DNA of 64,000 bases from Alphaproteobacteria bacterium (lineage in GTDB: Bacteria; Pseudomonadota; Alphaproteobacteria; Micropepsales; Micropepsaceae), in assembly GCA_947475445.1 (NCBI GenBank), contig CANJLC010000006.1, forward strand, positions 62,001 to 126,000. Reading direction: 5' to 3'. Position numbers and translations under genes: made by a program. Below the pieces are notes generated by a model. It made no database searches, had not been told where the DNA came from, and worked only from the letters and a program-made list of their open reading frames with translations. This document shows positions 2,963 to 15,560 of this stretch, one piece after another (within the stretch, counting starts at the first letter, position 1; every line of letters starts with the position of its first letter).

Positions 2963-4195
<1,233 letters not shown>

Positions 4196-5632: not shown

Positions 5633-5640
5633 TACCTTGG

Positions 5641-5697
5641 GTCGCGCGGCCGGACGGAAAACCGGTTCGCTGCGCTCCCACTTTTCCTGGCCGCCGC
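5641..5697. repeat. RIME/REP-like palindromic intergenic element, copy A
   Basis: In the gap between gyrB and the DUF4236 gene, GCGGCC (5646-5651) pairs with GGCCGC (5689-5694), and GGAAAA (5656-5661) pairs with TTTTCC (5682-5687). The two stems are separated by a 4-versus-1 base internal loop and closed by a 20-base terminal loop. A second copy at 15507-15560 has the same flanks and the same 4/1 internal loop but a different inner stem, with both partners changed. That pattern indicates selection or mobility acting on the fold. It resembles palindromic mosaic elements of Rhizobiales (RIME); that family link is from memory. Confidence 0.7.
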
Positions 5698-5707
5698 TCC
5701 CATGGCT

Positions 5708-15492: not shown

Positions 15493-15506
15493 GATCTTCT
15501 TTAATG

Positions 15507-15560
15507 GTCGCGCGGCCGAACGGCGAACCACGAGGCCGCACTTCGCCTGGCCGCCGCTCT
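15507..15560. repeat. RIME/REP-like palindromic intergenic element, copy B
   Basis: Lies in the divergent mutM/ubiE gap. GCGGCC (15512-15517) pairs with GGCCGC (15549-15554) and GGCGAA (15522-15527) pairs with TTCGCC (15542-15547). The terminal loop is 14 bases. Compared with copy A at 5641, the outer stem, the internal loop positions and the flank GGTCGCGCGGCC are shared. The inner stem has changed at two positions on both arms (AA/TT to CG/CG), keeping the pairing. Confidence 0.7.

Follow-up and report, generated by a model that had tools for sequence, protein, structure and literature searches.

Both palindromic elements in the window (the whole stretch of 64,000 nucleotides that was analysed) are probably copies of a non-autonomous, dispersed RIME/REP-like repeat that is widespread in Alphaproteobacteria and whose units would be inserted now and then by a mobiliser other than RAYT and would form a putative passive hairpin in 3′-UTRs. 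The repeat is real, dispersed and conserved in structure, with unusually clean covariation, and a single-hairpin repeat of a known kind (REP/RIME-like) at the 3′ ends of genes is the best reading of it. The first-pass annotation had suggested a dispersed palindromic unit of the REP/RIME type, and this was borne out by the copy numbers and the covariation found elsewhere. Selection on the hairpin, templated copying from arm to arm, or both together would maintain the shape.

Sequence and anatomy of the two copies

The same element had been described in the divergent mutM/ubiE gap (copy A) and in the gap between gyrB and a DUF4236 gene (copy B). Base by base comparison of 15506-15559 and 5640-5699 confirmed this, and direct reading bore out the internal loop of four bases against one, the two paired changes in the inner stem and the terminal loops of 14 and 20 nt. 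The identities of MutM, UbiE and DUF4236 were confirmed with Pfam; gyrB and the DUF4236 gene, which flank copy B, both lie on the minus strand. The features of both copies are listed below. The parts of each copy were placed by direct reading, supplemented by folding where indicated, and the bit scores were obtained with covariance model R1, of which both copies are training sequences.

15495-15505, plus strand: T-rich stretch ahead of copy A, by direct reading; family-typical by flank composition
15506-15559, plus strand: copy A, from GGTC to GCTC, in the divergent mutM/ubiE gap; 79.3 bits
15506-15509, plus strand: GGTC of copy A, followed by GC at 15510-15511
15512-15517, plus strand: 5′ arm of the outer stem of copy A, GCGGCC (direct reading and folding)
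15518-15521, plus strand: internal-loop side of copy A, GAAC
15522-15527, plus strand: 5′ arm of the inner stem of copy A, GGCGAA
15528-15541, plus strand: terminal loop of copy A, 14 nt
15542-15547, plus strand: 3′ arm of the inner stem of copy A, TTCGCC, followed by T at 15548
15549-15554, plus strand: 3′ arm of the outer stem of copy A, GGCCGC
15555-15559, plus strand: end of copy A, CGCTC
5640-5699, plus strand: copy B, from GGTC to GCTC, between gyrB and the DUF4236 gene; 78.4 bits
5640-5643, plus strand: GGTC of copy B, followed by GC at 5644-5645
5646-5651, plus strand: 5′ arm of the outer stem of copy B, GCGGCC
5652-5655, plus strand: internal-loop side of copy B, GGAC
5656-5661, plus strand: 5′ arm of the inner stem of copy B, GGAAAA
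5662-5681, plus strand: terminal loop of copy B, 20 nt
5682-5687, plus strand: 3′ arm of the inner stem of copy B, TTTTCC, followed by T at 5688
5689-5694, plus strand: 3′ arm of the outer stem of copy B, GGCCGC
5695-5699, plus strand: end of copy B, CGCTC

A strict two-part pattern matched twice in the window, against a mean of 0.01 in 100 shuffles, none of which held two matches. In the entire genome of 2,166,302 bases the strict pattern again matched only these two places. The proposal that two copies imply many in the genome was upheld by the covariance model, with 17 matches at E≤0.065, but not by the strict pattern. The stem was as described in both copies; across the family, however, the outer stem is longer (8 bp with GC/GC) and variable.

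On the plus strand the unit of the family starts with a T-rich tract (about -9 to -1), followed by GTCGC, a variable 6-nt arm and GGAC. The core is a conserved inner hairpin consisting of GGAAAACCG, a loop and CACTTTTCC, after which come T, the 6-nt arm that complements the first, in some copies a single bulged base, and GCTC. Conservation is stronger in the inner stem than in the outer one, where the unit varies and a single bulged base is frequent. Of 137 distinct copies, 126 fold more stably as the minus strand, in keeping with the C.A mismatch beside the inner stem, which turns into G.U on that strand. Among mismatches within the arms there were 19 cases of A.C (a wobble when read on the minus strand) and 9 of G.T, counted over distinct arms of two partly overlapping sets that share genomes, with arm pairs of fewer than four Watson-Crick pairs skipped; their types lean weakly toward the minus sense. 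An intrinsic terminator was rejected, because the T-tract stands ahead of the hairpin when the plus strand is read, and on the minus strand it is an A-tract that follows the hairpin.

Three plasmid copies from Rhizobiaceae have a second hairpin after the first, and the whole reads TAGAGC...GCTCTAG on the minus strand. By eye, no second palindrome was seen at the copies of the own genome, and most units in the genus of the window have the one hairpin alone.

Size and distribution of the family

Among 60 relatives, the strict pattern gave two true copies, in genomes G006 and G008, and its remaining matches look unrelated. According to the reading of open reading frames, the G006 copy lies between an SDR gene and trpS and the G008 copy 3′ of a Sel1-like gene. 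Model R1 was built from these two copies together with A and B. In the own genome (2.17 Mb) it gave 18 matches at E≤5, including the 17 at E≤0.065 mentioned above. The search of the genome and its relatives with a covariance model, as suggested in the first-pass annotation, thus brought up further copies: at E≤1, matches were found in at least 47 of the 61 genomes of the genus (own genome included), with a maximum of at least 68 per genome, all of these being lower bounds (88 candidates were scored per genome) and matches near E=1 being possibly due to chance.

The genus set used below comprises 144 copies and is non-random, as it holds the matches of the own genome and mainly the best-scoring ones from elsewhere. 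A copy found in two overlapping loci was counted once. Two weak matches, L111:839 (E 0.3) and L110:2116 (E 0.47), were excluded from the counts of pairing, flanks, TA, mismatches, folding and placement; the latter is still included in the survey of neighbour genes and in one placement line of 52/101.

Beyond the genus, the exact core was found in 10 of 190 genomes and 8 of 167 genera of the class, own genus included, against no match throughout for the reversed-core control. The core is present in named Hyphomicrobiales. When named genomes were scanned with a pattern in which the arms were free, at least 119 stretches were obtained, and Mesorhizobium, Chelativorans, Phyllobacterium, Nitratireductor, Agrobacterium salinitolerans, Amorphus and Pelagibacterium are among the matches listed. 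With a Chelativorans copy as query, 497 of 72,556 plasmids matched at 2,119 places (Rhizobium 288, Sinorhizobium 144); the plasmid count rests on this copy because copy B as query gave just 6 weak matches at E≤1. Phage records gave no match to the repeat at E≤0.01. A literature search by sequence word showed no paper of relevance to the repeat among those listed. The analysis yields a clean consensus of a palindromic repeat common to Rhizomicrobium-like bacteria, Mesorhizobium, Rhizobium and others, for which curated Rfam models stayed below threshold in the window.

Several side observations were made during these scans. The short pattern CTGGCCGCCGCTC with two mismatches was uninformative (430 matches against 429 for its reversed control). 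Tandem or clustered copies were seen at L274, from the Amorphus coralli genome (G258), which holds 140 exact-core matches, and at L187, with three neighbouring copies of the repeat. Four contigs titled as Candidatus Marinimicrobia MAGs (L293, L295, L344, L348) also bear the repeat; they are perhaps misnamed or misbinned alphaproteobacterial contigs.

Covariation of the arms

In the genus set, 128 of the 144 copies pair at six of six positions (a single bulge being permitted), with 30 distinct left arms, and the 50 distinct arm combinations hold 277 pairs against at most 237 in 5,000 shuffles. In a second set of 132 copies from named genomes, for which the arms had been free in the search, 107 pair at six positions, 19 at five and 6 at four; here 53 distinct arm pairs hold 291 pairs out of a possible 318, where 10,000 shuffles gave no more than 217. 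The further copies keep the stem rather than break it, though 16 of 144 in the genus set and 25 of 132 in the named set fall below six of six.

Alignment A5 is gapless and comprises 86 of the 132 named-set copies (5-nt loop, distinct sequence). In it, 98.1% of cells were paired against 85.9% in shuffles, and 163 two-sided cells were counted against 47.6 ± 6.9, a number reached in 0 of 500 shuffles; the shuffles in both comparisons ignore relatedness. Slid structures gave 7-37 two-sided cells. Two of five measures (pairs with two-sided change, and further pair types) did not exceed the shuffles. The inner stem is invariant in A5 because the search had fixed it. In the genus set it covaries, with GCAAAA/TTTTGC, GAAAAA/TTTTTC, GCCAAA/TTTGGC and GGGAAA/TTTCCC as well as GGCGAA/TTCGCC of copy A. 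The compensatory change noticed in the two window copies, proposed as the mark of a structured RNA or a transposase-moved REP/RIME unit, is found in other copies at a level above shuffles (the 163 two-sided cells).

Changes at single sites were followed by matching flanks with BLAST, which gave 43 copy pairs, 33 of them between different loci, some of the pairs having less than 200 nt or about 70% identity and so possibly not being orthologous. At least one two-sided change was present in 14 of the 33 and at least one broken pair in 10. By cells, 25 were two-sided, 3 one-sided and 18 broken, and 12 of the 18 came from two L187 copies whose ends the model had misplaced. In the SDR/trpS gap, G006 carries GCGGCC and GGAAAA with their partners, and the own genome ACACCC and GGCGAA with theirs.

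Such paired changes could also be mutational. A nascent strand that folds back at the hairpin during replication would have one arm copied onto the other (quasipalindrome template switching), and the arms would then drift together without any function. Taken as a single proposal, this main rival is a possibility of some weight, if on the doubtful side. It would account for the 25 two-sided against 3 one-sided cells at flank-matched sites and for the outer helix of A5, which alongside its 163 two-sided cells has only 5 G.U and 24 unpaired cells among 688. One-sided states are rarer than slow compensation in an RNA suggests, which favours templated copying, and their scarcity speaks for change that is concerted and perhaps templated. 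However, the internal loop has stayed asymmetric (GGAC against T), and the C.A or C.C mismatches by the inner stem likewise persist without having been evened out, so that copying alone is insufficient to explain the anatomy. For the dispersed REP/RIME-like repeat favoured here, an outer stem that varies freely with its pairing kept offers a test bed for selection on the hairpin against templated (quasipalindrome) mutation.

Placement between genes

With genes called by a home-made script, 81 of the 144 copies lay in co-directional gaps, 44 in convergent and 13 in divergent ones, and 6 at the edge of a locus; the other gaps of the same loci were divided 147/33/41 (p 2e-4 against the copies). 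Copies are dispersed between genes, enriched in convergent and depleted in divergent gaps. Co-directional copies were in minus sense in 53 of 81 cases (p 0.007). The 18 rows of the own genome comprise 7 (-,-), 6 (+,-), 3 (+,+) and 2 (-,+), and copy A is one of its two divergent copies, contrary to the preference of the family. For three annotated copies on plasmids, the match and the gene to its right overlap at the stop-codon end of that gene. The genes neighbouring the repeat are unrelated between copies.

Copies beside a stop codon would be carried in the mRNA of the minus strand, with the hairpin after the stop codon, where it would probably serve as a passive 3′-UTR barrier (end protection or processing), by analogy with proposals for other REPs. 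Many copies lie at stop codons; they could change mRNA ends, and could mislead predictions of sRNA genes.

Judged from its sequence, the repeat is possibly a transcribed structured RNA. It is unlikely to be a cis-regulatory RNA, or a small RNA with a function in trans, maintained for its structure. The strong covariation, the better folding of the minus sense and weak overlaps with Rfam models named as Brucella sRNAs all point to such an RNA, but the neighbour genes differ from copy to copy, unlike those of a cis-regulator, and no Rfam family reached its gathering score in the window.

The two window sites in relatives

Both gaps were compared by reading, and 27 of 29 relatives were readable at each. 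In the gyrB/DUF4236 gap, at least five congeners (L411, L412, L414, L415, L419) lack the element, and their stop and start codons overlap; in the mutM/ubiE gap, G009, G025, G014 and G006 have a short gap without the element. Model R1 found the element at the two gaps in the own genome only (1 of 30 loci each); another match, in L407, lies some 870 bases from its gyrB. As the element is absent from both gaps in relatives, the window insertions look lineage-specific; other copies are shared by position.

Other sequences were seen in the mutM/ubiE gap. Nine more distant congeners (e.g. L439, L441, L442, L458) have GTCGC and, six bases on, an RACGG-like stretch before TAGCC, which is either left over from the repeat or an older motif. 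In at least five other congeners (L448, L450, L451, L452, L453) the gap is occupied by palindromic repeats of the TGTCATCCCGG type, which by eye are like the CGTC REPs described in Di Nocera 2013 (PMC3733652).

In our reading, both window sites can be taken as a TA (or TAA) duplication when set against the gaps of relatives, as would be left by a MITE whose parent transposon, IS630/mariner-like or similar, duplicates a TA target. Such an origin is nevertheless improbable, since TA has no fixed place at either end over the 144 copies and clear terminal inverted repeats are absent in the genus.

Strand polarity

In genus g9, exact-core copies were divided by strand as 0/10 in G044, 21/1 in G202 and 2/17 in G251. 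Mixed counts were obtained in G250 (3/4), G249 (1/1), G252 (2/5) and G253 (4/0), which consist of several contigs of arbitrary direction. G044 is one contig of 3,741,076 bases, in which GC skew was positive in 9/9 samples up to 1.5 Mb and negative in 11/11 beyond 1.68 Mb (samples L465-L484; copies L485-L504). The copies thus stay on one strand across both replichores, a pattern that replication-linked insertion would not give. Coding bases in G044 are near balance between the strands (78,900 against 86,733). Counts elsewhere were 10/32 in Mesorhizobium amorphae, 3/15 in Phyllobacterium bourgognense and 92/48 in Amorphus; most of the window's genus is balanced, as is Chelativorans (32/30).

As a long shot, these counts allow one to imagine that the repeat is a single family of mobile hairpin elements, widespread in Alphaproteobacteria, whose mobiliser is other than RAYT and works on single-stranded DNA of a given polarity. 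If it were true, the one-strand copies of g9 would point to insertion during single-strand transfer of the whole chromosome or another chromosome-wide polar process, and the co-varying arms would be a record of one arm having served as template for its partner.

Search for a transposase

The transposase search was made with the PF01797 family. The own genome (G000, 98.4% complete) gave no match and no candidate. The family is present in 18 of 61 genus genomes, with no link between its presence and copy number (Fisher p 0.74-1, Mann-Whitney p 0.71; 61 genomes), and at RAYT loci the element was found in 0 of 30 (of 33 listed PF01797 places) at E≤0.1 within about 1.5 kb. Mobilisation by RAYT/TnpA-REP, which the first-pass annotation had raised, suggesting a check for such a gene, is largely refuted by these results, and a RAYT-mobilised REP is very improbable: the copies are REP-like in being short, imperfect intergenic palindromes at gene 3′ ends, sometimes tandem or paired, but they lack a GTAG end, the plus-strand ends being GGTC and GCTC. 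A past RAYT, since lost, may have been the mover.

Relation to known repeats and RNA families

The repeat shares with GTAG REPs with RAYT its nature as a dispersed intergenic palindrome, and differs from them in the lack of a RAYT in the own genome, of RAYTs flanked by the element and of the GTAG end. GTAG and CGTC REPs with similar placement are reported in Di Nocera 2013 (PMC3733652), where the CGTC REPs are given as having no dedicated transposase. Like the repeat, CGTC REPs are predominant in Alphaproteobacteria, lie at gene 3′ ends and avoid divergent gaps. Their description there is of an 8-9 bp stem starting with A-T pairs, a 4-5 nt loop and a CCA tail, whereas the repeat is longer, has a two-part stem with G-C first and lacks the CCA tail; by eye, then, stem and tail do not match this description, and identity with CGTC REPs was rejected.

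PMC2573895, PMC2245857 and PMC2873474 mention RIME and the Sm, AB and C palindromes known from Sinorhizobium, and the last of them reports 26 REP elements with transcriptional activity. Like the repeat, these are palindromic intergenic sequences of Alphaproteobacteria. Sinorhizobium plasmids carry the core, and the region of one of these copies has a full-length match on pSymA of S. meliloti 1021. RIME1 has two palindromes per unit. The three Rhizobiaceae copies with a second hairpin form a two-palindrome unit of this kind, unlike the mostly single hairpin of the window's genus. The repeat is likely identical with RIME1, RIME having been set against it by description rather than by sequence.

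Br-REP1/2 of Bradyrhizobium are likewise REPs in 3′-UTRs, with consensus sequences (PMC5082802) that differ from that of the repeat. Bru-RS1/2 of Brucella (PMC2266754, PMC2267715) are also alphaproteobacterial palindromic repeats.

Among Rfam models, RF02599 and RF02600 (named Brucella sRNA CI408/CI27) matched weakly over copies in L098, L314, L511 and L512, with 19.3 to 21.7 bits against gathering scores of 59.8 for RF02600 and 398 for RF02599. The RF02600 consensus is like the repeat in having a nested stem and then an A-rich linker; both models differ from it in the letters of the core, and all matches were below gathering. A cobalamin riboswitch (RF00174, 42 bits) was also seen on the minus strand of L512 at 3989-4188, on a Rhizobium leguminosarum plasmid.
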